Assembly: GCF_025149465.1 (NCBI RefSeq)
Contig: NZ_CP102275.1
Location: 186,001 to 250,000 of the forward strand
Source of the DNA: Thomasclavelia spiroformis DSM 1552
Lineage (GTDB): Bacteria; Bacillota_I; Bacilli_A; Erysipelotrichales; Coprobacillaceae
Length of the DNA: 64,000 nt
Direction: 5' to 3'
The notes below the pieces were generated by a model. It was not told where the DNA came from. It saw only the letters and a list, made by a program, of their open reading frames with translations, and did not search any database. Position 1 is the first letter of the stretch. Every line of letters begins with the position of its first letter. Made by a program: the position numbers and the translations under genes. Of the stretch, positions 19,225-34,091 are shown piece by piece.

Positions 19225-19234
19225 AATAATTGAT

Positions 19235-19253
19235 AAAAAAAGCTAATTTAATT
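19235..19253 (+). terminator. Left half of a terminator split by IS insertion and inversion
   Basis: AAAAAAAGCTAATTTAATT runs directly into the IS end. Its missing partner, AATTTAATTAGC followed by T residues when read on the other strand, is at 32161-32177, next to the second IS. Rejoined, they form a symmetrical terminator for the convergent permease and rlmA-like genes. The AATTTAATT at 19245-19253 is the left copy of the original target duplication. Confidence 0.75.
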
Positions 19254-20890
19254 CAATGTCATTAAGTTAAGATGACAATATTCAACCAGGAATTATATGA
19301 AAATATATCTTTCCTGGTTTTTAATATTTATTCAAGCTAAAAAAGTGTAGTCTTGAAACTACATCTGTCAAGGTATATAATAAATTATGTTAGTTATATC
19401 TATAGTTAAAGTATACGACAGTCTTTGGCCTGACATGTCGCTTGTATTTTCTGCCAGGGCGGATCGGCAGGATCTCTTTAGCTATCAGATGCTCTACAGG
19501 TGGATTCTTTCCACCTTTTTTTCTTAAAAACTCTCTGATGATATGTACAGATCTTGTGAAATTAACCTGATATGTATATTTAATCTTGTCCTTTTTAGGG
19601 ATTTTTATTTCCTGTACAATCCTTTGACAGAAATTATACATAAGCATGCGTGCATAGATTTCCTGCTGTATCAGTTCTCTTTTTTTGGCATGCAGTGCAT
19701 TGAGTCCAATGGCATACTTGAGTTCTCGAAATGAAGTTTCCTCTCCCCATCTCATATTGTAAATTTCGCAGATATCTTCCATTGAAAACTCATTTCTGCT
19801 CAAATTGGTAATGACAGTTTCATAGGTGTTTTCGGTAATTTTGAGTCTCACGACTCTGCAGTTGAACTCATACCAAGGATTTTGCTTGTTCATAAAATCA
19901 AATCTCATATTCTTAGGTACAAATTTATATACATCAGGACAAGCCTTTATCATTTTTGTTTGTTTCAAGGTCAGCATTCTAGACACATCAACATCAAATT
20001 CACCATCAGGAAACGGACCAAGTGATTTTGTGATACTTGATTGAGATTCGATATCCCTGACACGAATCAAATATTTATGTCCTGAGTGTACAACGTGTTC
20101 AAAACCATTGTAGGATTCATAGCCTCTATCGGCAATGAAGATGGCCTTTTGACCATCATATCTGTCAACAAGCTGACAGAAGGCACCATGTTCATCCCTT
20201 TTAGCTTCGCCCTGTATGATAATGTCATCATAGGTACGTTCCATCAGATCATAACTCGCATTTAAGTGATAGGCAGAAAAAGTTTTTGCAAGAGTGCCAT
20301 GTCTTAATACCGTTGTTTCATCATCAAAGATGGTATTATCAATAGGCAGTTCACTGCCATCAATGGCCAATAGCCTATAGCCATGATATAACTTTTTCTT
20401 GAATGTCTTTTTGTTGAAGCCATCAAACAAAGTCCTGAATGCTTCAGGCTTAATCTTGCTTCTAGCCTGGACAAAGGCAGAAGCAGAAGGTGTAGTAATA
20501 GAAAAGTCATTGAATTTAAGAAGCTCATCCTTGATAGGAGAAGCACCCGTACAAAGGACAATCTTCATGGTTGTTTCAAAGTCAAGCATTCTGTTTCTGG
20601 TGAAATCAGTATCAGGATTGACACAGAAGATAGAGCAGACATCAGAAAGATTTTTGATATTGTGAAAAAGAACGTTTTTAAGATGTTTATAACTATTCAT
20701 GTTCAAGTACCTCCAACATATACCTATAAACAATAGGCCTATTATCAATAGAAAATTGATGATAGGCCGCACACTATCACTGTAATGTCAATACTTATCT
20801 TTAAAAAACAATAAATATTTCAAACAAAAAAGAGAGGTACATTTTCATATACCTCTCAAGCGCCATTAAAACCTTAACTTAATGACATTG
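19254..20890 (-). mobile_element. IS4-type insertion sequence, copy 1 (1637 bp)
   Basis: The ends are an 18-bp perfect inverted repeat beginning CAATGTCATTAAG (19254-19271 and 20873-20890). Inside are one transposase gene, an AACCAGGAA-type hairpin near the transposase 3' end, and a hairpin with a T-run at about 20829-20860 that would stop read-through into the transposase. No matching target duplication flanks this copy as it stands; the partner sequences lie at copy 2. Confidence 0.9.
19390..20700 (-). CDS. IS4-family transposase, copy 1
   Basis: A 436-aa DDE transposase. The catalytic acidic residues lie in LLAIDGSELPI, AIFIADRGYES and RWGEETSFRELKY; the last fits the IS4 pattern of R and E followed by K. 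The start is ATG 20698-20700, preceded by TGGAGGTACTTGAAC; the longer frame from 20772 is rejected because the ribosome site would be internal. The gene is intact and nearly identical to copy 2, differing in a cluster around residue 315 (NEFSMEDICEIYN against EEFLMEEISEIYD), so both may be active. Confidence 0.93.
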   Translation of the reverse strand: MNSYKHLKNVLFHNIKNLSDVCSIFCVNPDTDFTRNRMLDFETTMKIVLCTGASPIKDELLKFNDFSITTPSASAFVQARSKIKPEAFRTLFDGFNKKTFKKKLYHGYRLLAIDGSELPIDNTIFDDETTVLRHGTLAKTFSAYHLNASYDLMERTYDDIIIQGEAKRDEHGAFCQLVDRYDGQKAIFIADRGYESYNGFEHVVHSGHKYLIRVRDIESQSSITKSLGPFPDGEFDVDVSRMLTLKQTKMIKACPDVYKFVPKNMRFDFMNKQNPWYEFNCRVVRLKITENTYETVITNLSRNEFSMEDICEIYNMRWGEETSFRELKYAIGLNALHAKKRELIQQEIYARMLMYNFCQRIVQEIKIPKKDKIKYTYQVNFTRSVHIIREFLRKKGGKNPPVEHLIAKEILPIRPGRKYKRHVRPKTVVYFNYRYN

Positions 20891-20938
20891 TTCATAACCT
20901 ACTATAAACATAGTAATTTTAGAAATCTCTTATTAATT
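20891..20938 (-). terminator. Truncated GH89 terminator, interrupted by the IS
   Basis: Read on the minus strand, AGAGATTTC and the inner TACTAT/ATAGTA hairpin follow the GH89 stop, but the closing GAAATCTCTTTTT is absent because the IS begins. That missing arm is at 33823-33836 beside copy 2. The complete version of the same terminator follows the GH20 gene at 38850-38896. Confidence 0.75.
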
Positions 20939-20939
20939 A

Positions 20940-23900
20940 TTAATCTTCTTTTCTTCTTAATACTGCATATCCAGCTACGCTTAATAATGCAAGGCCTGCT
21001 AACATTCCAGCTAAGCTTTCATCTCCTGTTTTTACACTTACAGTAGTATCACTTTTATTTACTGGTGTTTTTACTGTGTTATCAGTTGTTACTGTTTGTA
21101 ATCCAGCAAGAGCTTTTGCTAGAACATCTTTTGCACTATCTACTTCTTTTTGCGTTGCATCTGGATTATCAAATACTACTTTTGCTTCATCTAATGCTTT
21201 TGTTAATCCATCAAATGATTCTTTTGTATAATTTGCTACGTTTAATCCATTTGCTTGATTGATTAATTCTTCTAATAGACTCTTATCTGAAATTAATCTT
21301 AAGTTCAAGAATGCTGTTACTAAATTAGTATATGCTTCATTTACTTCTTCTTGCATTGCATTTACATCACCATATACATCATTTGCTGCTGTTAATGCAT
21401 CATTAAATGCTGTCCATGTAGTTTGAGTATATTTAGTTGCATCTAATCCTGTAACATCATCAATAAATGCTTTTAATGCTTTTTTATCTCCTTTGAAAAA
21501 TTCTAGTTTTTGCATTGCACTAGCAAGTCTATCAAATGCATTGTTTACTTCATCTTGAGTAGCACTAACATTGTTATAAACTGCATTTGCTTCATCTCTA
21601 GCTGCTTTGAATTCATTAGCTACTACTGGTACAACATTAGCTAAATCTTCATCAGTAAGTGCATTAGCTAGGTCTACTGCAATCTTTAATGCTGTTTTAT
21701 CAACCTTTACTTTTACTAAATCATCAATTGCTTTCAATAAATTATTTTTAGCATCTTCAACTTGTTTATTTGTTACTTTTTCAGTTTCCAAAACAGTTTT
21801 TGCTTCCATCAATACTTCTTGCATTGCATTCCATGATTCTTTAGTATAGTCATTTTCATTTAAATTAGTCGCGTCATCAATTACAGCTTTTAATTCTGTC
21901 TTATCAACTACAATAATATTATCATTAAATGTTTCAATAGCTTCTTTTAAACTATTAATAATCTCTTCTACATCATCAGCAGTAATTGCATCAGCATATC
22001 CCTTTTCAATGTTATCAATTGTATTTTTAAATACATCCATTGTTTCTTGACTAACATTTCCATTATATTCACCGATTTCTGTAGTCTCAATTAATTCTTT
22101 TGCAATTGCTAATTGTTCTTGATAAATTTCTTGTTTAGAAATAAGTAATAGTGCTTCATCTTTTGCTTCTTTTAATAACTTTGTACTATTATCTAATTCT
22201 ACTTGAGTTACTTTATATGTATCATAAACATTTTTAGCATTTACATAAGCTTCATTTAATAAAACATTATCTTTTAAGCTATCTAATTTTAATAATTCAT
22301 TTACTTCAGTTAATTCTACTAATAATGCAGTTCGATCAACGCTAATATATGATCTTAAAAACTCATTATATGCCTTATTTAATTCCTCTTGCTGTTGTTT
22401 AACTTCTAATGAATTAATATCACTATCAATCAATTCTCTTGTTTTAGAAATCTTATCATCTAATACTTGTTTAGCTTCTAAAGAATAATTTCCAGCGTAT
22501 TCACCAATTTCAACTTTAGATACTTTATTTTCGATATTACCAATATATGATTCTAATTCAATAGTTGGATCATAACGATATACATTAAATCCGCTTATAT
22601 TACAACTATTATTAAATATAGTCAAACATACTTTATTTGTTAAAACGGCATCAAACTCTCCTACATATTTACTACTATTATCTAAATTATTACTTTCATC
22701 ACTTAAAACTTCCCAATTATTATCACTTGATAAATATTCCACTTTATATTGAAGTGCTTCATCACTTAACTTATATAATTCATAAGCATAAATATCAACT
22801 AATTTATCAAATTCAAAAATAAGTTCTTTTTCTTCATTTGAATTAAATTCAACACTAGTAGCATTATCATTATCAATTAATGCTGATTTTTGTTCATCAG
22901 TTAAAGACATATTTCCACTAACTTTACTATCATTAGTAATTGTTTCTGGTTTAGCGAAAACTTCTATTTCAGTCATTGCTGGTGAAGCTAAATAAAATTC
23001 ACCACCAGGAGCTCTTCCCTCAATAACTACATTAACCTTAGCACCATTTACTTTAGCATCAATAGTATATGATGCATCTAAATCATCAACATTATCTGTT
23101 TTATCCAAAATTACTGTTTTATTTCCAGCTAAGTCTTCTACTTCAACTTTAAACTTAAATCTAATTCCTGGTTTTTCAAAATAAATCTTTACTTCTTCAA
23201 TAAACTGTTCACTACCTAAATCAACTTGGAAAGTAGTAGGGAAATCATCATGTCCTACATTTTCTAAACCAGTAGTTGATCCATCAGTTAATTTACTACT
23301 ATCATATGAATTTTGATTAATTACATGCCCTGGTTTTCCATAAGCAATATTTTGATATTCAAATTCAATTTCAGTTTCTTGTAATAACTTAATTTCAGCT
23401 AAAGCTGGCCATGCTAAATAGAATTCTCCTCCTGGTGCTCTTGCCATTAAATTAACATATACTTTCTGTACTTTTTGATTTACTGGTAATCTATACATTC
23501 CTGCTAAATCTTCAGTATTATCACTTTTATCTTGAAGTGTTGTTTTGTTTCCATTACCATCTTCAATTACAACATCATATTGATATCTTAATCCAGGTTT
23601 TTCAAAATATAATTCTAGAACATCTACATATTCTTCTTTACCTAAATCCAATGTTAATAATGCTGGATACTTATCTCCATTTCTTACCCACAATGTACTA
23701 GGATCGTCATCTGTAATTTTTGTAGTTGTTCCCTCTGGAGTAGTTACTGGTGCACCTACTGCAATATTTTTATAATTTGGTTGTTTTTCAACTTTACCAT
23801 AAATTGCAAGTTCAGCAACTTCAGGAATAATTGAAGTATCAGTAGTATTAAATGTAAATCTTACTTTACTTGCAATCCCTTTATAATCTATTAATGTTTG

Positions 23901-26900
23901 ACTTGTTATTTCTCCATCATCATTTTGAGCAACAACATTCCATTGATTTTCACTAAAAACTTCTACTTTATATGTATATGGAAAACCACCTGCTATTTGT
24001 TTTAATGATATTTCCATTCCATCAATACTTGATTCAGCTTCTAAATCCACTGTTAAATCAAAACTAGAAACATTGCTTTCACCTATCCAAGTAGTTTCTT
24101 TATTACCATCTGTTAAATTATCTGTTGGATTAGTAGGTACATTATTTATTGATGCACTAACTTTTTTTCCTAATGCAATATTTTCCTTTTCTTCAACATT
24201 TCCCACTAAATTTTCCAAGCTTGATATTGAATATTCATTATAAGCTTTCATTGCTAATTCATCTAAAGCCAAATTTGAAGCTTCAATACTATATTCATTA
24301 CCTTCATCAGATTTTAAATTTGCCCACTCCCATTCCATTAAAAACCAATCAGTAGAAGGAACAGCAGTGTTATTTTTCATTGCTTCTTTAACATCATTGA
24401 TCCATTTTTGCCATCTTGGATAATAATAATCTTTTGTAAGACCAGCCCATTGACGATTTGAATAATCTCTTAAACCGCCACCATTGGCATTTTTCAAACC
24501 ACCCCATGTTGTAATTAAATCACGGGCATTAAATTCAAATAAGTCTTTTGTCCAATCATCACTATCTTCGATCATTGTTCTTGCTTGTTCTATCCATTTA
24601 CCAACTAAAAAGTCACTATTAGTTGATAAAATTTGATCTTGTAATAAAATCATTTCTAAAAATTTATCAGATAAAACTTCAAATTCACTAAGATTCCCTG
24701 CTTGATAAGCATTTACCATAGCTTTATGATATTCTTGAGCTGAATTAGAAATCAATTGTCTAGTAATATCAGATAAATCATAAATAAATGCTGGACTATC
24801 TTTAAACTCATCATAATTTTTTGCCATTAAATAAACAGCGCGTTCTAGTTCTTCTTTATCATAATTAATTGTACTATGTCCCCAAGAAGAAGCTGATGTA
24901 AAGTTTGTTGTTGGACGAGCATTAATTACTGACTCAGGCGCTCCTTGATAGTAATTATCTTTTCGATTATATCCAGTATCTAATAAAATATTCCAAACTT
25001 CTTCAATATCTTCGTTAGTTCCTCCATATATACGTTTAGCATAATCTTGGCACCATTGACGAAAATCAATTGGATCTTTTGTCCAAGTCATATCCCAAAG
25101 TAATTCATAAGCCATTGGTGAATTTTCAATTGCTTCTGGAGTCATTCCAATTCCTACCATATGTTCACTATTTTGATATGTATTAGGAATATTTTGTGAA
25201 ACTTTTTCAGGATTTGCATCTAATCCCATACGTCCCCCAAAGTTATGAAGCATATTCCAAATCCATGGTGTATCAGCAGCTTCTAATGCTGAATTTCTTG
25301 GACTTACTTCAGAAAATAAATCTAAAACAATTACATGTTCTTTATCCAAATTAATTAATTTACTTGGATTACTAGCTATACTTCCTGACCATTCTTGAAT
25401 TAACCAAATTGCATCTTCATCATTTTCCATCATTTTCTTTTGAACTGTTTCATACACTTTAGTATAATTCATATCCCCAATTTTTCCACCTTCATGGAAT
25501 GGATCAACTGCATAAATATTTGTTACATCACCAAAGATATCACGCTGTGCTTTATAGAAAACATCAGCCATTTGTGAAAAATAATCTGTTCCACCATTAT
25601 CAACATATGTTCTTAACATATCAGGTCTTTCATAACCACACCAACTACCTTGTGCTACATATTGTACATCTTGGTATTTATCTTTAAAATTAGTTGGCAC
25701 TTGCCCTGAAAAGCCACTTAATACAGGTGTAATTCCATATGTTTGCATTCTATCATGCATCTTTCTAGCTAATTCAACACGTTCTTCAAACCAATTATTA
25801 GGTAATTTTCCACCATAGCTAGTCATATTTTGCATATAGAACCATGCAAAATATCCAGGACCTGCAATATATTCTTTTATTTCTTCATCGCTATATCCAT
25901 ATGCACTTAAAGTACGTCGAATTACTTCTTCTTGCCCTACAATATCTAACATTGTATTAATACCAGACATTGCTGCCCAATCTAAAAATGCCTCATATTC
26001 ATCCCAATTCCAAAATGCCATTGTATATGAATATGTACAGAAATTTAAAGCATAACGATAATCGTACTGTGTCTCTTTTACAATTTTACTATTTAATTGC
26101 GGTAATGTTTCTGGCATCTTTAATTGCGAAGCAAAAAGTGGATTATAATCAACATTACAATAATATCTTAAATAATAATTGAAAGCTGATGCCATCGAAA
26201 CTCCATCATTTCCACGAATAACGATTTTTCCATTTTCACCATTTTCAATTTCAAAAACATCTTTACCATCATTTGCTTCTCTTATTTCAAATACAAATGA
26301 ATCTTGCCATTTTTCTCCAATAACACGTCCAACTAAAGCAGACATTTCTTTAATTGTTTTATCATTAGCATAATTTTCATCAGTAGAAAATTTTTCATAC
26401 TCTTTGACCCATTTTGTATCTTTAAAATCAGCTACTTCTATTTTTTCAATTTTATCATTTAACTCGCCAACTTTAGAGCCATATAATTCTACTTCAGCCA
26501 AATTTCCTTCCATTTGATTTGAATTATAACTTAAATTAATTCTTACATGACTAGCATTGACATCTAAAGTATATTCATCCCCTGTATCGCTAGCCATTTT
26601 ATCATCAGATTTATAAGCAACTTTATCATAATTAACACCATCACTAGATGTATAAATCTGATAATGATTATATGAGCCTTCGTTGTTATAAATAACAATT
26701 TTAGAAAGTTCATATATCCCATCTAAATTTAAATCAATATTACGATAATGATCTTGCATCGTATTAGAAGCTGGCGTCATATAATAAGTATCCTTATTTC
26801 CATCAATTGCCAAATTAGCTTCATGATTACTACTGCTTTTACCACTAGCGCTAATATTTGTGATTCTACCATTTTCTTGAGCCATTACTTTATAGTTTGG

Positions 26901-26960
26901 TACTACAAGCATGCTCGAACATAATAAGGTAGACAAAAAAATTTTCCCTATCTTTTTCAT
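20940..26960 (-). CDS. Cell-wall-anchored GH89 alpha-N-acetylglucosaminidase
   Basis: A 2006-aa secreted enzyme. A signal peptide (1-28, ending VMA-Q) leads to an F5/8-type (CBM32) module and then the NAGLU-like N-domain and catalytic barrel. The general acid is Glu490 in YAVDPFHEGG and the nucleophile is Glu609 in GMTPEA, by alignment with human NAGLU. At least three more CBM32-like modules follow (about 970-1480), then seven FIVAR repeats (about 1520-1950), SVKTGD at 1975, a hydrophobic helix and the RRKED tail. GH89 enzymes remove terminal alpha-GlcNAc from mucin or heparan-type glycans. AGGAGGAGG precedes the ATG. The gene lies inside the inverted segment and has lost half its terminator. 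Confidence 0.92.
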   Translation of the reverse strand: MKKIGKIFLSTLLCSSMLVVPNYKVMAQENGRITNISASGKSSSNHEANLAIDGNKDTYYMTPASNTMQDHYRNIDLNLDGIYELSKIVIYNNEGSYNHYQIYTSSDGVNYDKVAYKSDDKMASDTGDEYTLDVNASHVRINLSYNSNQMEGNLAEVELYGSKVGELNDKIEKIEVADFKDTKWVKEYEKFSTDENYANDKTIKEMSALVGRVIGEKWQDSFVFEIREANDGKDVFEIENGENGKIVIRGNDGVSMASAFNYYLRYYCNVDYNPLFASQLKMPETLPQLNSKIVKETQYDYRYALNFCTYSYTMAFWNWDEYEAFLDWAAMSGINTMLDIVGQEEVIRRTLSAYGYSDEEIKEYIAGPGYFAWFYMQNMTSYGGKLPNNWFEERVELARKMHDRMQTYGITPVLSGFSGQVPTNFKDKYQDVQYVAQGSWCGYERPDMLRTYVDNGGTDYFSQMADVFYKAQRDIFGDVTNIYAVDPFHEGGKIGDMNYTKVYETVQKKMMENDEDAIWLIQEWSGSIASNPSKLINLDKEHVIVLDLFSEVSPRNSALEAADTPWIWNMLHNFGGRMGLDANPEKVSQNIPNTYQNSEHMVGIGMTPEAIENSPMAYELLWDMTWTKDPIDFRQWCQDYAKRIYGGTNEDIEEVWNILLDTGYNRKDNYYQGAPESVINARPTTNFTSASSWGHSTINYDKEELERAVYLMAKNYDEFKDSPAFIYDLSDITRQLISNSAQEYHKAMVNAYQAGNLSEFEVLSDKFLEMILLQDQILSTNSDFLVGKWIEQARTMIEDSDDWTKDLFEFNARDLITTWGGLKNANGGGLRDYSNRQWAGLTKDYYYPRWQKWINDVKEAMKNNTAVPSTDWFLMEWEWANLKSDEGNEYSIEASNLALDELAMKAYNEYSISSLENLVGNVEEKENIALGKKVSASINNVPTNPTDNLTDGNKETTWIGESNVSSFDLTVDLEAESSIDGMEISLKQIAGGFPYTYKVEVFSENQWNVVAQNDDGEITSQTLIDYKGIASKVRFTFNTTDTSIIPEVAELAIYGKVEKQPNYKNIAVGAPVTTPEGTTTKITDDDPSTLWVRNGDKYPALLTLDLGKEEYVDVLELYFEKPGLRYQYDVVIEDGNGNKTTLQDKSDNTEDLAGMYRLPVNQKVQKVYVNLMARAPGGEFYLAWPALAEIKLLQETEIEFEYQNIAYGKPGHVINQNSYDSSKLTDGSTTGLENVGHDDFPTTFQVDLGSEQFIEEVKIYFEKPGIRFKFKVEVEDLAGNKTVILDKTDNVDDLDASYTIDAKVNGAKVNVVIEGRAPGGEFYLASPAMTEIEVFAKPETITNDSKVSGNMSLTDEQKSALIDNDNATSVEFNSNEEKELIFEFDKLVDIYAYELYKLSDEALQYKVEYLSSDNNWEVLSDESNNLDNSSKYVGEFDAVLTNKVCLTIFNNSCNISGFNVYRYDPTIELESYIGNIENKVSKVEIGEYAGNYSLEAKQVLDDKISKTRELIDSDINSLEVKQQQEELNKAYNEFLRSYISVDRTALLVELTEVNELLKLDSLKDNVLLNEAYVNAKNVYDTYKVTQVELDNSTKLLKEAKDEALLLISKQEIYQEQLAIAKELIETTEIGEYNGNVSQETMDVFKNTIDNIEKGYADAITADDVEEIINSLKEAIETFNDNIIVVDKTELKAVIDDATNLNENDYTKESWNAMQEVLMEAKTVLETEKVTNKQVEDAKNNLLKAIDDLVKVKVDKTALKIAVDLANALTDEDLANVVPVVANEFKAARDEANAVYNNVSATQDEVNNAFDRLASAMQKLEFFKGDKKALKAFIDDVTGLDATKYTQTTWTAFNDALTAANDVYGDVNAMQEEVNEAYTNLVTAFLNLRLISDKSLLEELINQANGLNVANYTKESFDGLTKALDEAKVVFDNPDATQKEVDSAKDVLAKALAGLQTVTTDNTVKTPVNKSDTTVSVKTGDESLAGMLAGLALLSVAGYAVLRRKED

Positions 26961-26980
26961 TTTTCCTCCTCCTTGCTTTT

Positions 26981-27026
26981 ATTATATCATTAAATTATTA
27001 GTAAAATTTTACAATCATTAGTAAAA
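26981..27026 (-). promoter_or_regulatory. GH89 promoter with AraC-like operator repeats
   Basis: TATAAT (minus strand, 26981-26986) is preceded by two TTTTACTAAT copies (27017-27026 and 26997-27006) 20 bp apart, plus the palindrome GTAAAATTTTAC. A 46-bp segment of the same layout and very similar sequence occurs at 38920-38965. AraC-type activators typically bind direct repeats spaced by about two helical turns. Confidence 0.6.
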
Positions 27027-27034
27027 ATCAACAC

Positions 27035-27066
27035 AAAAAAAGTGACACTTAACCAAAAGTATCACT
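27035..27066 (-). terminator. Terminator of murA
   Basis: On the minus strand AGTGATACTT pairs with AAGTGTCACT (one mismatch) and is followed by TTTTTTT. Confidence 0.75.
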
Positions 27067-27092
27067 ATTTTTATAAATATTTACATTAAATA

Positions 27093-28361
27093 CTAATCCT
27101 CAACTTGACGACGAGTAATAACTGCTCCTAAAGAAACAAGTTTATGATCAATATTATCATATCCACGATCAATATGATAAACATTACCAATTTCTGTAAC
27201 TCCTTTTGCCATTAATCCTGCAACGATCAAAGCAGCACCACATCTTAAATCAGTTGCATAAACTCTTGTACCGTGCAATGGAGTTGGCCCATTTACAAAA
27301 CACATCGCTTCTTCTTGAATAATATTAGCTCCCATTGAATTTAACTGATAACAATGTCCAAAACGTTCTGGATAAATTGTTTCAACAACTTGTGATTCAC
27401 CTTGACACTGTGTCAATAAAGTAGTTAGAGGTTGTTGTAAATCTGTTGCAAAGCCTGGATATACTTGCGTTCTTATATCAACTGGCTTTAAATTTTCTAT
27501 TCCGCCATGAACAATTATACTATCACCAACAATATCCATTTTAACACCAATTTCTTTTAATTTAGATGTTACAGCTTCTAAATGTTGAGGAATAACATTT
27601 TGCACAATTACTTTTTCACCAGCAGCTGCAGCAATTATCAAAAATGTTCCGGCTTCAATACGATCGGGAATTATTTCGTGATTACAACCATTTAATTTTT
27701 CAACACCTTCAATTGTAATAGTATCCGTACCAGCTCCACGAATTTTTGCTCCCATTTTTGTAAGTAAGTTTACTACATCAATTATTTCTGGTTCTTTAGC
27801 AGCATTTTCAATTGTTGTTTTACCTTCAGCTTTAACAGCAGCAAGTAAAATATTAATTGTCGCTCCTACTGAAGCAAAATCTAAATATATTTTATTTCCT
27901 ACTAATCGCTTAGCTTCTATCGTATATGTTCCATCATTACTATAATCAACTTTAGCGCCTAAAGCCTCAAATCCTTTAATATGTAAATCTATAGGACGTG
28001 GGCCTAAAAAACAACCACCTGGCATCTTCATCGTAACTTTTTTGCATTTACCTAATAATGCTCCCATAAAATAATAAGAAGCTCTTAATTTATCAACTGC
28101 TTCACCTACTAATGGTATATTTTCTAAATTAGTAGGATCAACTACTAATATATCTTCATTTTTTTCAACCTTACAATTTAATTCTTTTAATAACACTCCT
28201 AATGCATCAACATCAGAAATATTTGGCACACCATATACAGTTACAGGACTATCTGCTAAGACAATTGCGGGTATAAGTGCAACCGTTGCATTCTTTGCAC
28301 CACTTATAACTACAGTTCCATTTAATTTATTTCCACCCTCAATAGCAATTACTTCACTCAT
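27093..28361 (-). CDS. murA: UDP-N-acetylglucosamine 1-carboxyvinyltransferase MurA
   Basis: A 422-aa enolpyruvyl transferase that commits UDP-GlcNAc to peptidoglycan synthesis. SGAKNATVALIPA at the N-terminus carries the conserved Lys-Asn. PGGCFLGPRPIDLH holds the loop Cys that fosfomycin alkylates, so the enzyme is predicted to be fosfomycin-sensitive. GTRVYATDLRCGAALIVAGL is the second-domain signature. The length is normal. AGGAGG stands before the ATG. The gene is within the inverted segment; in the ancestral order it would point rightward like its neighbours. Confidence 0.95.
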   Translation of the reverse strand: MSEVIAIEGGNKLNGTVVISGAKNATVALIPAIVLADSPVTVYGVPNISDVDALGVLLKELNCKVEKNEDILVVDPTNLENIPLVGEAVDKLRASYYFMGALLGKCKKVTMKMPGGCFLGPRPIDLHIKGFEALGAKVDYSNDGTYTIEAKRLVGNKIYLDFASVGATINILLAAVKAEGKTTIENAAKEPEIIDVVNLLTKMGAKIRGAGTDTITIEGVEKLNGCNHEIIPDRIEAGTFLIIAAAAGEKVIVQNVIPQHLEAVTSKLKEIGVKMDIVGDSIIVHGGIENLKPVDIRTQVYPGFATDLQQPLTTLLTQCQGESQVVETIYPERFGHCYQLNSMGANIIQEEAMCFVNGPTPLHGTRVYATDLRCGAALIVAGLMAKGVTEIGNVYHIDRGYDNIDHKLVSLGAVITRRQVED

Positions 28362-28585
28362 CTTAGTCCTCCTTCTATTTTTAATCTCTGCTACTACTAT
28401 ATATTAATTTATTGTTAAAAACAACCTAAATTTGTATTTTTAAACAATTAAAATAGTAAAATATTTTTTATAATTTCACATAATTATAGTTATAAAAGTA
28501 TTACAGGATTTATTAATATCATCACTTTATTAATATATACACTAATTATTTAAATATTTTGTAGAATAAACAAATACTTTATAAA

Positions 28586-28612
28586 GAAAAAAAGAATCTC
28601 TAATCGAGATTC
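28586..28612 (-). terminator. Terminator of fba
   Basis: A perfect GAATCTC/GAGATTC stem (28594-28600 and 28606-28612) with a 5-nt loop, followed on the minus strand by TTTTTTTCTTT. The rest of the 28362-28629 gap is AT-rich and presumably holds the murA promoter. Confidence 0.85.
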
Positions 28613-28629
28613 CTTAAATAATAATTTAA

Positions 28630-29496
28630 TTATGCTTTACCAATGCATCCAAAGATTTCCATTTTTTCTTTAACACATTGTTTAATTGCTTCTGCTCCAG
28701 GAGCTAATAATTTACGAGGATCGAATCCTTTACCTTCTAAATCTTTTCCAGCTTCAATATATTTTCTTGTAGCTTCTTGGAAATATAATTGACATTCAGT
28801 ATTTACATTGATTTTAGAAACACCTAAATTAATAGCTTTTTTAATCATTTCTTCAGGAATTCCAGTTCCACCATGTAATACTAAAGGTAATTTTCCAGTT
28901 TCTTGTTGAATTGCATCTAATGCATCAAAATCTAAACCTGCCCAATTTTCAGGATATTTACCATGAATATTTCCGATACCTGCTGCTAAGAAGTCAACTC
29001 CTAAATCAGCAATCATTCTACATTCTTTTGGATCGGCAACTTCACCTTTACCAATAACACCATCTTCTTCTCCACCGATAGATCCAACTTCAGCTTCAAT
29101 AGAAACACCTTTTGCATGGCATAATTCAACCATTTCTTTAGTTTTTTCTAAGTTTTCTTCAATTGAATAATGAGACCCATCAAACATGATTGAAGAGAAT
29201 CCTGCTTCTAATGCAGCTTTAGCTCCATCATAGCTACCATGATCTAAGTGTAAAGCTACTGGTACAGTAATTCCTAAAGAATCAACCATTGCAGCTACCA
29301 TAGCTGAAACAGTTTTAAATCCAGTCATATATTTAGCAGCACCTTCAGATACTCCTAAAATTACTGGTGCCTTTAATTCTTCTGCAGTTAAAAGAATAGA
29401 TTTTGTCCATTCTAAGTTATTAATGTTAAATTGACCAACTGCATAATGTCCTTCTTTTGCTTTATTTAACATTTCTGTTGCTGATACTAATCCCAT
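28630..29496 (-). CDS. fba: Class II fructose-1,6-bisphosphate aldolase
   Basis: A 288-aa zinc aldolase of the FbaA/GatY family. It has VALHLDHGSYDGAKAAL with a zinc-binding His, SIEAEVGSIGGEEDG, GIGNIHGKYP with a second ligand, LVLHGGTGIPEE and SKINVNTE. It cleaves fructose bisphosphate to GAP and DHAP in glycolysis; a tagatose bisphosphate role is possible for close relatives. A strong AAAGGAGA site precedes the ATG. It is transcribed alone, with its own terminator. Confidence 0.92.
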   Translation of the reverse strand: MGLVSATEMLNKAKEGHYAVGQFNINNLEWTKSILLTAEELKAPVILGVSEGAAKYMTGFKTVSAMVAAMVDSLGITVPVALHLDHGSYDGAKAALEAGFSSIMFDGSHYSIEENLEKTKEMVELCHAKGVSIEAEVGSIGGEEDGVIGKGEVADPKECRMIADLGVDFLAAGIGNIHGKYPENWAGLDFDALDAIQQETGKLPLVLHGGTGIPEEMIKKAINLGVSKINVNTECQLYFQEATRKYIEAGKDLEGKGFDPRKLLAPGAEAIKQCVKEKMEIFGCIGKA

Positions 29497-29620
29497 AATA
29501 TTTCTCCTTTTCTTTTATCACATATATAATACTATTATTTAAATCAAATTTCCATAGTATCATTTAGATTTTTGTCTATTTTCTTTAATTTTACTCATAG
29601 TAAGCGATTACTTTGTTTTA

Positions 29621-30361
29621 CTATCTTAAAACTTGCTTTGATTTAAATATATCTTTAGAAAAATGATACAATGTTATCCCCAAAGCCATCGACAAATTTA
29701 ATGAATCAATTTTATCACTATGCGGGATAAAAATACTTTGTCCATAATTTAAAAACTCATCTGGTAATCCACTGCTTTCATTACCAAAAACCAAAGAATA
29801 ATTTTTATCATCAGGCTCAATTAAATGAATATTTTTTGCCCCTTTTAACATTAATGGATAAATATCTCTATTAGGATATTTATGTAAATAATCATCAAAA
29901 GTATCAAAATATTCAAAATTAATATTAAATATCGCTCCCATTGATGCTCTAACAACCTTAGGATCAAATACATCTACTCCAGGTCTAATAATCGCTAAAT
30001 CATTATATCCAAACCCAAGCATTGTTCTAATAATTGTTCCCATATTTCCCATATCACCTGGATTTACTAATACAACATGATTAGTATTTTTTAATTCCAT
30101 ACTGTATTTTTTAATAATCGCAATCGCAAAACAATTATCTTTTTTAGATAACTTATTAATAGTATTATCACTTTCAATCAAATCAATCTTATTTCTTTTA
30201 CATAAATCATCAATAATACCAATACCTTTATTTTTATAAGAATTACTTTTAATATATACTCTTAATACTAAATCAGGCTTATTTTTTAATAACTCAATGG
30301 TTTCAAACACCCCTAAAGTATAAGTATATTCAAAACTTTTATGATATGCTTTAATCTTCAT
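29621..30361 (-). CDS. SpoU/TrmH-family RNA 2'-O-methyltransferase
   Basis: A 246-aa SPOUT methyltransferase. The three family motifs are NPGDMGNMGTIIRTMLGFG, LVFGNESSGLP and SLNLSMALGITLYHF, forming the knotted SAM site. The N-terminal 90 residues form a small substrate-binding domain. It methylates a ribose in rRNA or tRNA; the target cannot be named. The start overlaps the upstream small gene by 11 bp, indicating coupling, and AAAGGG lies ahead of the ATG. Confidence 0.88.
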   Translation of the reverse strand: MKIKAYHKSFEYTYTLGVFETIELLKNKPDLVLRVYIKSNSYKNKGIGIIDDLCKRNKIDLIESDNTINKLSKKDNCFAIAIIKKYSMELKNTNHVVLVNPGDMGNMGTIIRTMLGFGYNDLAIIRPGVDVFDPKVVRASMGAIFNINFEYFDTFDDYLHKYPNRDIYPLMLKGAKNIHLIEPDDKNYSLVFGNESSGLPDEFLNYGQSIFIPHSDKIDSLNLSMALGITLYHFSKDIFKSKQVLR

Positions 30362-30620
30362 AATTCAATCCCTTTAACAAATCAATCTGTTTCTTTAAAT
30401 CTTGCTTTAACATTTCAAAATGTTGACGATCATAATCAACACCTTGATCAATCAATTCCAATAACTCATCATATTTATGATAAGCTAGTTCAAATTGTGA
30501 AATTTGGATTTCAAAATCCATTTCTCGTTGCCCACTTGCAACAATTTCATTAATCTCTTTGTATTTTGCTTTAAATAACTCATCTAAATCAACTTGTTTC
30601 TTCTTTCTAAAAAAAACCAT
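30351..30620 (-). CDS. Small coiled-coil protein of unknown function
   Basis: An 89-aa protein that starts MVFFRKKKQVDLDELF and continues as charged, leucine-periodic helix without Cys, typical of a short coiled coil. No family is recognised. AGGAGGTAAAG precedes the ATG, and the end overlaps the trmH-like start by 11 bp. It lies between the GNAT and the methyltransferase on the same strand, so it is a real operon member. Its context suggests an RNA- or ribosome-linked role, but this is conjecture. Confidence 0.7.
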   Translation of the reverse strand: MVFFRKKKQVDLDELFKAKYKEINEIVASGQREMDFEIQISQFELAYHKYDELLELIDQGVDYDRQHFEMLKQDLKKQIDLLKGLNYED

Positions 30621-30629
30621 CTTTACCTC

Positions 30630-31181
30630 CTAATTAAAATAATCTAATAATGAAAAAGGGATAACTTTAGGTGGATTTAAAGTATGTTCTCCAACTATTT
30701 TTTCCATCCATATCATATCATACCACTTATCAAACTTATAACCACATTGATGAAAATAAGCAACTTCTAAATAACCCATTTTCTTATGAAAAATAACACT
30801 TCCCTCATCAGGAATAGCAATACAAGCATTCATATTTAAAATATTTTGTAACTTAGTTATCTTTTCTAATTCATCATACAACAATTTACCAATTCCTAAG
30901 CCACGATAGTTCATATCAATATAAATAGATGTTTCAACAGCCCAATCATATGCTGCTCGATTTTTAAATGCTGAGGTATAAGCATACCCTACAATTAAAT
31001 CATCTTTTTTAGCCACTAGATACGGATATTTAATTAGCGTATTTTCAATTCTTTGTTCAAACTCTTCTACTGTAGGAATAGTATATTCAAATGTAATTGC
31101 AGTATTTAAAATGTAAGGTGTATAAATGTCAAGTAGTCTTCTGGCATCTTCTTTTTTAGCCGGTTCTATCTTTATCTCCAT
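30630..31181 (-). CDS. GNAT acetyltransferase, phosphinothricin acetyltransferase-like
   Basis: A protein of about 183 aa with IEPAKKEDARRLLDIYTPYI, then TAITFEYTIPTVEEF, AYTSAFKNRAAYDW, the acetyl-CoA loop YRGLGIGKLLYDEL and FHQCGYKFDKWYDMIWMEK. This order is that of the PAT/YwnH/MnaT group, which acetylates phosphinothricin, methionine sulfoximine or related amino acids. The start is ATG 31179-31181, seven bases after AAGGAG; the upstream frame from 31217 would include the ribosome site. It is the first gene of the leftward GNAT-small protein-trmH unit. Confidence 0.85.
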   Translation of the reverse strand: MEIKIEPAKKEDARRLLDIYTPYILNTAITFEYTIPTVEEFEQRIENTLIKYPYLVAKKDDLIVGYAYTSAFKNRAAYDWAVETSIYIDMNYRGLGIGKLLYDELEKITKLQNILNMNACIAIPDEGSVIFHKKMGYLEVAYFHQCGYKFDKWYDMIWMEKIVGEHTLNPPKVIPFSLLDYFN

Positions 31182-31230
31182 AAACATCTCCTTATCCGCC
31201 TTAAAATTACATATCATAAATAAAAAACTA

Positions 31231-31326
31231 ATTTTATATTAATATTATCTCTTTCAAGATAATATTATACCATATTTTATATTAATATTATCTCTTTCAA
31301 GATAATATTATACCATATTTTATATT
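31231..31326. repeat. 43-bp tandem repeat, each unit containing a hairpin
   Basis: Unit 1 (31231-31273) and unit 2 (31274-31316) are identical, with 10 bases of a third. Each carries the perfect inverted repeat TAATATTATC/GATAATATTA around an 8-base loop. The array is in the divergent promoter region of the GNAT and rlmA-like genes. Confidence 0.9.
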
Positions 31327-31354
31327 TATGTTATAATAGCTTCGAGGTGAAATT

Positions 31355-32170
31355 ATGCATAAATTAGCATGTCCAAAATGTCATAAACCAATCGTACAAG
31401 TAAATAATTCATATAAATGTGAAAATAATCATTGTTATGATATTGCTAAAAGTAAATATCTAAATTTACTTTTAAATCCTGATAAAGCAACAAATAACCC
31501 AGGTGATAGTAAAGAAAGTCTTATTGCAAGAAAAGCATATCTAACAAAAGGTTATTATGATATCATCCTAGAAAATGTAATTAATTGTATTAAAAAATAT
31601 CGTAATAATAACTCTTTAGATATTCTAGATTTAGGTTGTGGTGAAGGATATTATACAAAAAGTTTAAAAGAAGCATTTAAGAAAGATAATATTTATGGCT
31701 TAGATATTTCAAAAGAAGCAATAAATATGGCAACTAAATATACAAAAGAAGTATATTGGTTAGTTGGTAATAGTAAAAATTTACCAATCATTGATCATTC
31801 TTTAGATTTTATTACTGCATTATTTACCGTAGTTAATCTTGATGAATTAAAAAGAACATTAAAACCTGGTGGCTATGTAATCCACGTTACTGCTAATCCT
31901 AATCATTTAATTGAAATCAAGCATTTAATTTATGATGAAATTAAAGTTAAGAGTGATAAATATATTAGACTAGATTTAGAAAAAGTGGAAAGTTATGATC
32001 TTGTACAACAAATAAAAATCGATAATCGTGAAGATGCTTTAAATCTTCTTAAAATGACACCACATTATTACCATATCAAAAAAGAAAAACGTCATGTTTT
32101 AGAAACATTACAAAATTTAAATGTTACAATTGATGTTAAATTCACTATTTATCGTACAGAAAAAAGCTAA
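31355..32170 (+). CDS. rlmA: 23S rRNA (guanine-N1)-methyltransferase, RlmA family
   Basis: A 271-aa protein with an N-terminal zinc finger CPKCHKP...CENNHC (residues about 5-28), then NLLLNPDKATNNPGDSKE, ARKAYLTKGYY and the SAM motif ILDLGCGEGYY. This combination defines RlmA/TlrB enzymes, which methylate G745 or G748 in 23S rRNA helix 35. In Gram-positives the RlmA(II) form can influence macrolide binding. GAGGTGA precedes the ATG, and TATAAT is at 31331-31336. Its 3' end abuts IS copy 2; before the inversion it faced the ABC permease gene. Confidence 0.85.
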   Translation: MHKLACPKCHKPIVQVNNSYKCENNHCYDIAKSKYLNLLLNPDKATNNPGDSKESLIARKAYLTKGYYDIILENVINCIKKYRNNNSLDILDLGCGEGYYTKSLKEAFKKDNIYGLDISKEAINMATKYTKEVYWLVGNSKNLPIIDHSLDFITALFTVVNLDELKRTLKPGGYVIHVTANPNHLIEIKHLIYDEIKVKSDKYIRLDLEKVESYDLVQQIKIDNREDALNLLKMTPHYYHIKKEKRHVLETLQNLNVTIDVKFTIYRTEKS

Positions 32171-32177
32171 TTAAATT
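32161..32177 (-). terminator. Detached half of the split terminator
   Basis: Read on the minus strand this is AATTTAATTAGCTTTTT, the exact complement-type continuation of 19235-19253. It overlaps the end of the rlmA-like gene. The AATTTAATT (minus strand of 32169-32177) is the second copy of the original 9-bp target duplication. Confidence 0.75.
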
Positions 32178-33817
32178 CAATGTCATTAAGTTAAGGTTTT
32201 AATGGCATTCGAGGGTTATATTGCAAATATACCCTCTCTTTTTTATGAGATTTTTTATCATTTTTAAAAAAGAAAAGTATTGACATTACAATGATAGTGT
32301 GCGGCCTATTATCAATTTTCTATTGATAATAGGCCTATTGTTTATAGGTATATGTTGGAGGTACTTGAACATGAATAACTATAAACATCTTAAAAACGTT
32401 CTTTTTCACAATATCAAAAATCTTTTTGATGTCTGCTCTATCTTCTGTGTCAATCCTGATACTGATTTCACCAGAAACAGAAAGCTTGACTTTGAAACAA
32501 CCATGAAGATTGTCCTTTGTATGGGTGCTTCTCCTATCAAGGATGAGCTTCTTAAATTCAATGACTTTTCTATTGCTACACCTTCTGCTTCTGCCTTTGT
32601 TCAGGCCAGAAGCAAGATTAAGCCTGAAGCATTCAGGACTTTGTTTGATGGCTTCAACAAAAAGACATTCAAGAAAAAGTTATATCATGGCTATAGGCTA
32701 TTGGCCATCGATGGCAGTGAACTGCCTATTGATAATACCATCTTTGATGATGAAACAACGGTATTAAGACATGGCACTCTTGCAAAGCCTTTTTCTGCCT
32801 ATCACTTAAATGCGAGTTATGATCTGATGGAACGTACCTATGATGACATTATCATACAGGGCGAAGCTAAAAGGGATGAACATGGTGCCTTCTGTCAGCT
32901 TGTTGACAGATATGATGGTCAAAAGGCCATCTTCATTGCCGATAGAGGCTATGAATCCTACAATGGTTTTGAACATGTTGTACACTCAGGACATAAATAT
33001 TTGATTCGTGTCAGGGATATCGAATCTCAATCAAGTATCACAAAATCACTTGGTCCATTTCCTGATGGTGAATTTGATGTTGATGTGTCTAGAATGCTGA
33101 CCTTGAAACAAACAAAAATGACGAAAGCTTGTCCTGATATATATAAATTTGTCCCTAAGAATATGAGATTTGATTTTATGAACAAGCAAAATCCTTGGTA
33201 TGAGTTCAACTGCAGAGTCGTGAGATTCAAAATTACCGAAAACACCTATGAAACTGTCATTACCAATCTGAGCAGAGAGGAATTCTTAATGGAAGAAATC
33301 AGTGAAATATACGATATGAGATGGGGAGAGGAAACTTCATTTCGAGAACTCAAGTATGCCATTGGACTCAATGCACTGCATGCCAAAAAAAGAGAACTGA
33401 TACAGCAGGAAATCTATGCACGTATGCTTATGTATAATTTTTGTCAAAGGATTGTTCAGGAAATAAAAATCCCTAAAAAGGACAAGATTAAATATACATA
33501 TCAGGTTAATTTCACAAGATCTGTACATATCATCAGAGAGTTTTTAAGAAAAAAAGGTGGAAAGAATCCACCTGTAGAGCATCTGATAGCTAAAGAGATC
33601 CTGCCGATCCGCCCTGGCAGAAAATACAAGCGACATGTCAGGCCAAAGACTGTCGTATACTTTAACTATAGATATAACTAACATAGTTTATTATATACCT
33701 TGACAGATGTAGTTTCAAGACTACACTTTTTTAGCTTGAATAAATATTAAAAACCAGGAAAAATATATTTTCATATAATTCCTGGTTAAATATTGTCATC
33801 TTAACTTAATGATATTG
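32178..33817 (+). mobile_element. IS4-type insertion sequence, copy 2 (1640 bp)
   Basis: The ends are CAATGTCATTAAGTTAAG (32178-32195) and its inverted partner with one change (CTTAACTTAATGATATTG, 33800-33817). It has the same internal layout as copy 1 in the opposite orientation. The hairpin ahead of the transposase differs in both arms from copy 1 while still pairing. Confidence 0.9.
32371..33681 (+). CDS. IS4-family transposase, copy 2
   Basis: A 436-aa intact transposase with the same DDE residues as copy 1 (LLAIDGSELPI, FIADRGYES, RWGEETSFREL). The ATG at 32371 follows TGGAGGTACTTGAAC. Codon use contains more C and G than the flanking genes, consistent with foreign origin. Confidence 0.93.
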   Translation: MNNYKHLKNVLFHNIKNLFDVCSIFCVNPDTDFTRNRKLDFETTMKIVLCMGASPIKDELLKFNDFSIATPSASAFVQARSKIKPEAFRTLFDGFNKKTFKKKLYHGYRLLAIDGSELPIDNTIFDDETTVLRHGTLAKPFSAYHLNASYDLMERTYDDIIIQGEAKRDEHGAFCQLVDRYDGQKAIFIADRGYESYNGFEHVVHSGHKYLIRVRDIESQSSITKSLGPFPDGEFDVDVSRMLTLKQTKMTKACPDIYKFVPKNMRFDFMNKQNPWYEFNCRVVRFKITENTYETVITNLSREEFLMEEISEIYDMRWGEETSFRELKYAIGLNALHAKKRELIQQEIYARMLMYNFCQRIVQEIKIPKKDKIKYTYQVNFTRSVHIIREFLRKKGGKNPPVEHLIAKEILPIRPGRKYKRHVRPKTVVYFNYRYN

Positions 33818-34091
33818 GATTACGAAATCTCTTTTTATGTTTATTGAAATGAATTTAAAAGTTGATAGATGAAGAAATTGAAGCTTAAAAAGTTATGGGA
33901 TTTGTTTTATTGGTAGATAATAATGTTTTTAAAAATGATTTTAAAGATTATATATATAATAATTTATTTATGTTTATTTTGTGTAAAAATAAAGTACACT
34001 TATTGCTAGATTATGTTATTTATGTAATAATATCCATACTGATAGCTTTGATAACGCTATCAATTCGAAAGGAAGGAAAAGGATATAGATT
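33818..34091 (+). other. Spacer before GH20: terminator remnant and promoter region
   Basis: GATTACGAA (33818-33826) is a degenerate target-site copy of GGTTATGAA at the copy 1 junction. GAAATCTCTTTTT (33824-33836) is the orphan 3' arm of the GH89 terminator. The rest is AT-rich. A hairpin GATAGC/GCTATC lies near 34041-34060 without a T-run. A short frame at 33895 lacks a ribosome site and is not called. Confidence 0.6.

Follow-up and report, generated by a model that had tools for sequence, protein, structure and literature searches.

The genome of Thomasclavelia spiroformis DSM 1552, assembled as one contig of 2,528,470 bases, was analyzed over a stretch of 64,000 bases (bases 186001-250000, here called the window). 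An 11.3-kb segment of this window is inverted relative to related genomes and is bounded by two inverted copies of an insertion sequence (IS) of the IS4 family. Homologous recombination between these two copies, each of which had inserted separately, is very probably the origin of the inversion. The gene order is reversed with respect to relatives, the breakpoints lie at the ISs, the flanks of the two ISs match when their inner members are exchanged, and the segment retains the base composition of its old orientation. Together, these results show that murA, fba and their neighbours have a derived, not an ancestral, order and orientation in this genome. The ISs, the segment and its genes are the following (window coordinates).

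19254-20890, minus strand: IS4-family copy 1; transposase open reading frame (ORF) at 19390-20772, minus strand
20891-32177, no strand: inverted segment, 11,287 bp, defined by synteny, GC skew and flank swap
20940-26960, minus strand: GH89 (NAGLU) surface protein, now head-on to replication
27093-28361, minus strand: murA, oriented toward yycJ in relatives
28630-29496, minus strand: fba, class II fructose-bisphosphate aldolase
29621-30361, minus strand: TrmH/RlmB-like RNA methyltransferase, below curated cut-offs
30630-31217, minus strand: GNAT acetyltransferase, ArsN1-like, below cut-off
31355-32170, plus strand: RlmA-like 23S rRNA methyltransferase, below the NCBIfam cut-off
32178-33817, plus strand: IS4-family copy 2; transposase ORF at 32299-33681, plus strand

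The segment is reversed relative to related genomes

We compared the window proteins with the stretches around murA and rlmA in 19 of 39 relatives, namely all eight other genomes of the genus and 11 from other genera of the family. In the sense of the window, the usual order in these genomes is w9(-), w10(-), w11(+), rlmA(-), GNAT(+), trmH-like(+), fba(+), murA(+), yycJ(+), individual genes being absent from some of them. The gene yycJ lies downstream of murA and is co-directional with it in all seven same-genus genomes that have both genes in the stretch (G002-G008). The 3' end of murA also faces a co-directional yycJ in 8/9 genomes of other genera (G010, G011, G013, G015, G016, G018, G021 and G023). 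At the other end, the 3' end of rlmA points toward w9-w11 in 6/6 genomes of the genus (G001, G002, G004-G007) and in 4/4 of other genera (G011, G018, G020, G023). The window is thus reversed relative to its relatives at both ends of the segment. No marker was found beside murA or rlmA in G012 and in a second contig of G008, and G015 and G020 are informative at one end only.

None of the matches listed for the genus, with 39 candidates scored per genome, places the IS on the sister stretches. The first-pass annotation had named sister genomes without the ISs as a possible refutation, should they share the orientation of the window; they have the opposite orientation, as it had predicted. A search with murA and its 10-kb flanks yielded no second strain of the species among 80 loci; the best of them belong to other species (93% at most), and records near the window's own may be absent from this search. 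The 32 of these 80 loci that were examined (L071-L102) include four with a match to yycJ, which is co-directional with murA in all four. Two of these loci lie on contigs already represented by G003 and G018, and the other two were left out of the counts.

Large surface glycosidases and other genes at 34092-63000 separate the segment from yycJ (63478) in the window. Since murA lies close to yycJ in the sisters, this block was either gained here or lost there.

Exchange of the inner flanks

The four sequences that border the ISs are listed below.

19225-19253, no strand: outer left flank, half of the permease/rlmA terminator, ends in the target copy AATTTAATT; refolds with the reverse complement of 32139-32177
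20891-20935, minus strand: inner left flank, 5' part of the GH89 terminator, minus-strand end GGTTATGAA
32139-32177, no strand: inner right flank, other half of the permease/rlmA terminator, AATTAAATT (reverse complement AATTTAATT)
33818-33840, plus strand: outer right flank, GATTACGAA and the 3' half of the GH89 terminator, GAAATCTCTTTTT

The 9-mers at the IS borders are AATTTAATT (19245-19253), TTCATAACC (20891-20899), AATTAAATT (32169-32177) and GATTACGAA (33818-33826). As assembled, the flanks of copy 1 agree at 3/9 positions and those of copy 2 at 4/9; after exchange of the inner flanks the agreement is 9/9 and 7/9. The earlier claims that neither IS has a target duplication in its present context, and that swapping the inner flanks gives one duplication of 9 bp and a second of 7/9, were therefore confirmed, and the coordinates given for them are correct. 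Among single 9-mers drawn at random from intergenic parts of the window, the frequency of a 9/9 match to AATTTAATT is 3e-4 and that of a match of 7/9 or better to GATTACGAA is 0.002.

The same exchange rebuilds two terminators, the convergent one of permease and rlmA and that of GH89, with folding energies of -9.7 kcal/mol (z -4.4) and -16.9 kcal/mol (z -4.7). When the junctions were folded against shuffled sequence, the present ones gave z values of -0.9 and +1.6, while the rebuilt ones gave -3.7 and -3.9. Folding thus agrees with the first-pass annotation, which had proposed both terminators and had likened that of GH89 to the intact one after GH20. The latter, AGAGATTTCTAAAACTACTGCTTATAGTAGTTATGAAATCTCTTTTTATT, lies 3' of GH20 and closely resembles the rebuilt GH89 terminator; a second GH89 gene bears a third version of the same type. 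Exact matches to AGAGATTTC-N(10-40)-GAAATCTCT in the genome are confined to the terminators after GH20 and after the second GH89. The stop codon of rlmA lies inside its broken terminator. The 3' flanks of rlmA in seven relatives are unlike that of the window and therefore have no bearing on the rebuilt hairpin either way.

Base composition of the segment

The gene dnaA is on the plus strand (C1:73), which makes the plus strand the leading strand in the window. When the window is divided into bins of 2 kb, the six bins from 20 to 32 kb all have negative GC skew (-0.15 to -0.32), and 25 of the remaining 26 have positive values. This reversal, which partly follows gene strand, lies between the two ISs. 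At third codon positions of the coding strand, the flipped genes together have a skew of +0.41, against -0.11 for genes native to the minus strand of the window; the value for rlmA, which is at present on the leading side, is -0.36. In the relatives, which have the old orientation, the values are +0.24 for murA, -0.33 for fba, +0.32 for the TrmH-like gene, +0.59 for GNAT and -0.37 for rlmA. The segment thus still carries the composition of its former orientation, which means that the flip happened recently, recurs in both directions or is confined to the assembly.

The two IS copies

Copies 1 and 2 are inverted with respect to each other and 96.3% identical (1586/1647 BLAST columns, five of which are flank); 65 columns differ in a MAFFT alignment, and the longest identical tract is 229 bp. 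They are the only full-length copies among the seven matches listed for the genome (40 of 72 first-look candidates scored). Each has one ORF of 460 amino acids coding for an intact DDE transposase with the domain DDE_Tnp_1 (PF01609). The transposase of copy 2, the one scanned against NCBIfam, scores 167.6 bits with NF033592 (transpos_IS4_1; cut-off 115). The Y-(2)-R-(3)-E-(6)-K motif is present as YDMRWGEETSFRELK in copy 2 and YNMRWGEETSFRELK in copy 1.

The IS ends are CAATGTCATTAAGTTAAG and do not match the IS231-subgroup ends CAT-------AA--TAA (Table 1 of PMC2266710). The IS4-subgroup pattern -AATR--------WTW fits them, with duplications of 9-10 bp compared with 10-13 bp for that subgroup. 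The IS4Sa-subgroup ends CA------T and its repeats of 8-10 bp both fit, but so does the IS4-subgroup end pattern. As described in PMC2266710, these two subgroups share with the window copies a single-ORF DDE transposase, the YREK motif, duplications of about 10 bp and an end CAATG.

At each IS end in the window an inward-facing hairpin is followed by a T run, and three of these four hairpins fold at z below -4. The left-end hairpin recurs in five related copies that were folded, with its stem sequence mostly changed. This comparison used single foldings. The hairpins at the IS ends, together with the broken terminators of GH89, rlmA and permease, suggest that terminators carried by the ISs probably replace the broken ones.

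Origin of the inversion

In the course of events that we favour, two IS copies would have inserted separately and in opposite orientations into two intrinsic terminators. One insertion would have hit the convergent permease/rlmA terminator and made the 9-bp duplication AATTTAATT; the other would have hit the terminator of GH89, where the two 9-bp target copies would since have drifted apart to 7/9. The inverted ISs, which share identical tracts of up to 229 bp, would later have recombined homologously and thereby flipped the 11.3 kb. As a result, GH89, murA, fba, the TrmH-like gene and GNAT would have come to lie on the lagging strand, and each IS would now be bordered by one flank of either original target. 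We infer that recombination of the RecA type was the agent, that the events followed this order and that the strain mainly has the orientation seen in the assembly.

A single IS might instead have inverted the segment by intramolecular replicative transposition, the second copy being born in the same event. Such a route would presumably also leave exchanged target duplications, so that the flanks by themselves are compatible with it. Replicative copies are identical at birth, however, and the two copies differ in a way that points to separate origins: at 17 sites, nine of which lie within the first 82 bases, copy 2 and an IS from another genus (G043) agree with each other and differ from copy 1 and most outgroups. 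Three sites point the opposite way, so that a separate origin of the copies is at odds with 3/20 informative sites, and 35 differences are private to one copy. The ratio of 17 sites to 3 makes two insertions followed by homologous recombination more likely than replicative inversion; in addition, IS4-family transposases are described as cut-and-paste enzymes (PMC2266710). We consider the replicative route quite improbable.

Somewhat less improbable, although still unlikely, is that the strain has the ancestral order or a mixture of both orders, and that the contig is misjoined, or records a minority form, across the IS copies. Short reads can misjoin repeats of 1.64 kb that are 96% identical and contain an identical tract of 229 bp, and a wrong join across such 1.6-kb repeats would leave the same signals in flanks, skew and synteny. 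The genome is nevertheless a single contig, and 61 to 65 columns separate the copies, so that reads of several kb would resolve them; for a one-contig assembly of 2.53 Mb, misassembly appears unlikely. Inverted IS copies flanking genes are also the layout of Tn5 and Tn10, and the two IS4-family copies with their 11.3-kb core might be seen as a composite transposon of this kind. The outer flanks match at 3/9 positions with no outer duplication, and the cargo is made up of conserved genes that occupy their normal place between w11 and yycJ. Both findings contradict this explanation, to which we give almost no credence. Tn5 and Tn10 are composite transposons of IS50 and IS10, respectively (PMC2266710).

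Several observations weigh against an inversion by recombination between the ISs. The 9/9 match counts for less than it seems to, since AATTTAATT forms the middle of a palindromic terminator, and the second duplication is imperfect. Not every flipped gene fits the skew pattern: fba, taken by itself, has a third-position skew of -0.13. Among relatives, yycJ is reversed in G022, the sole exception of the nine genomes of other genera; fba is opposite to murA in G016; and in G001 the w9-w11 block itself is flipped, while folD beyond it keeps its direction. These three genomes (loci L233, L235 and L240) show that the neighbourhood rearranges now and then. Furthermore, no GH89 orthologue was found beside murA in the relatives, the nearest case being a GH89-like gene after murA in G001 with 38% identity; the ancestral orientation of GH89 therefore rests on its terminator and on skew. 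In G007 a GH89 with 77% identity lies at a contig end, while murA of that genome adjoins yycJ.

Related IS copies and their hairpin targets

We searched the genus and family for related ISs and read seven complete copies and 40 IS ends. Exact duplications paired 20 sites, all with 9 or 10 bp (pairing window 8-12 bp). At 12/20 sites the duplication lies near the centre of a stem of 8 or more pairs, compared with 258/5000 random sites of sister loci; by the same stem criterion, 911 of 6953 intergenic positions of the window qualify. Folding goes past z -2 at 11/20 paired sites and in 23 of 200 random 50-mers. All six complete copies with a duplication are among the twelve hairpin sites. The seventh, in G043 (L179:1332-2957), has intact ends and flanks that mismatch each other; it may represent another IS-IS rearrangement or an error in a draft contig.

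These data raise the possibility, which we advance tentatively, that this IS4-family lineage uses intrinsic terminators as safe sites, where it splits the hairpin near its loop and brings inward-acting terminators at both of its ends. Since the copies would sit at the edges of transcription units, recombination between inverted copies would flip whole units uncut; in this genome that might work as a reversible switch that sets murA and fba against replication. Several results also speak against this reading. The 40 IS ends were hand-picked from a longer list and are not a random sample, eight of the 20 paired sites are without a stem of at least 8 pairs near the centre, and nine fail the folding threshold of z -2. 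In addition, the hairpin at the left end of copy 2 folds at z -1.8 only.

Relation to known systems

The inversion itself is an ordinary IS-IS inversion of a well-known kind; the preference of the IS for terminators is less ordinary. Inversions mediated by recombination are named as a consequence of ISs in PMC2266710. The window has the features of such events, with inverted copies at both breakpoints, exchanged target duplications and reversed genes between them. Nothing essential is different, except that the segment is short (11.3 kb) and both breakpoints lie in terminators. Searches of a library of open-licence PMC papers listed no report of this particular inversion.

The closest published case that we found for the choice of target is IS1272/TnSha1 of staphylococci, which also targets hairpins, several of them confirmed as transcription terminators (PMC4923244). 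According to that paper, IS1272 removes part of the hairpin without duplicating its target, whereas the relatives of the window IS make duplications of 9-10 bp around the loop. In this respect the window IS is unlike IS1272-type elements. For some elements of the IS4 subgroup, PMC2266710 describes target arms that are strikingly conserved; the word 'terminator' is absent from its main text, and the target arms are shown in its figures.

Two points follow for the reading of this locus. Because murA and fba are among the flipped genes and now run against replication, and because this head-on placement is derived, comparative work should not read it as old. Moreover, the preference of this IS lineage for terminators would put IS-IS rearrangements between transcription units, which may explain why such flips are tolerated.

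Additional observations

At window positions 20940-44749, the C-terminal module of the GH89 protein, which contains FIVAR, matches dozens of sites in the genome, and the whole protein has 53 matches; they form a large paralogous family of surface enzymes. One related IS copy, in G022 (L188:110-2965), exceeds its relatives in length by about 1.2 kb and retains its ends and a 9-bp duplication, which suggests an insertion inside it. On contig G005:C58 (L190) two left ends of the IS lie 180 bases apart, which suggests two insertions close together.

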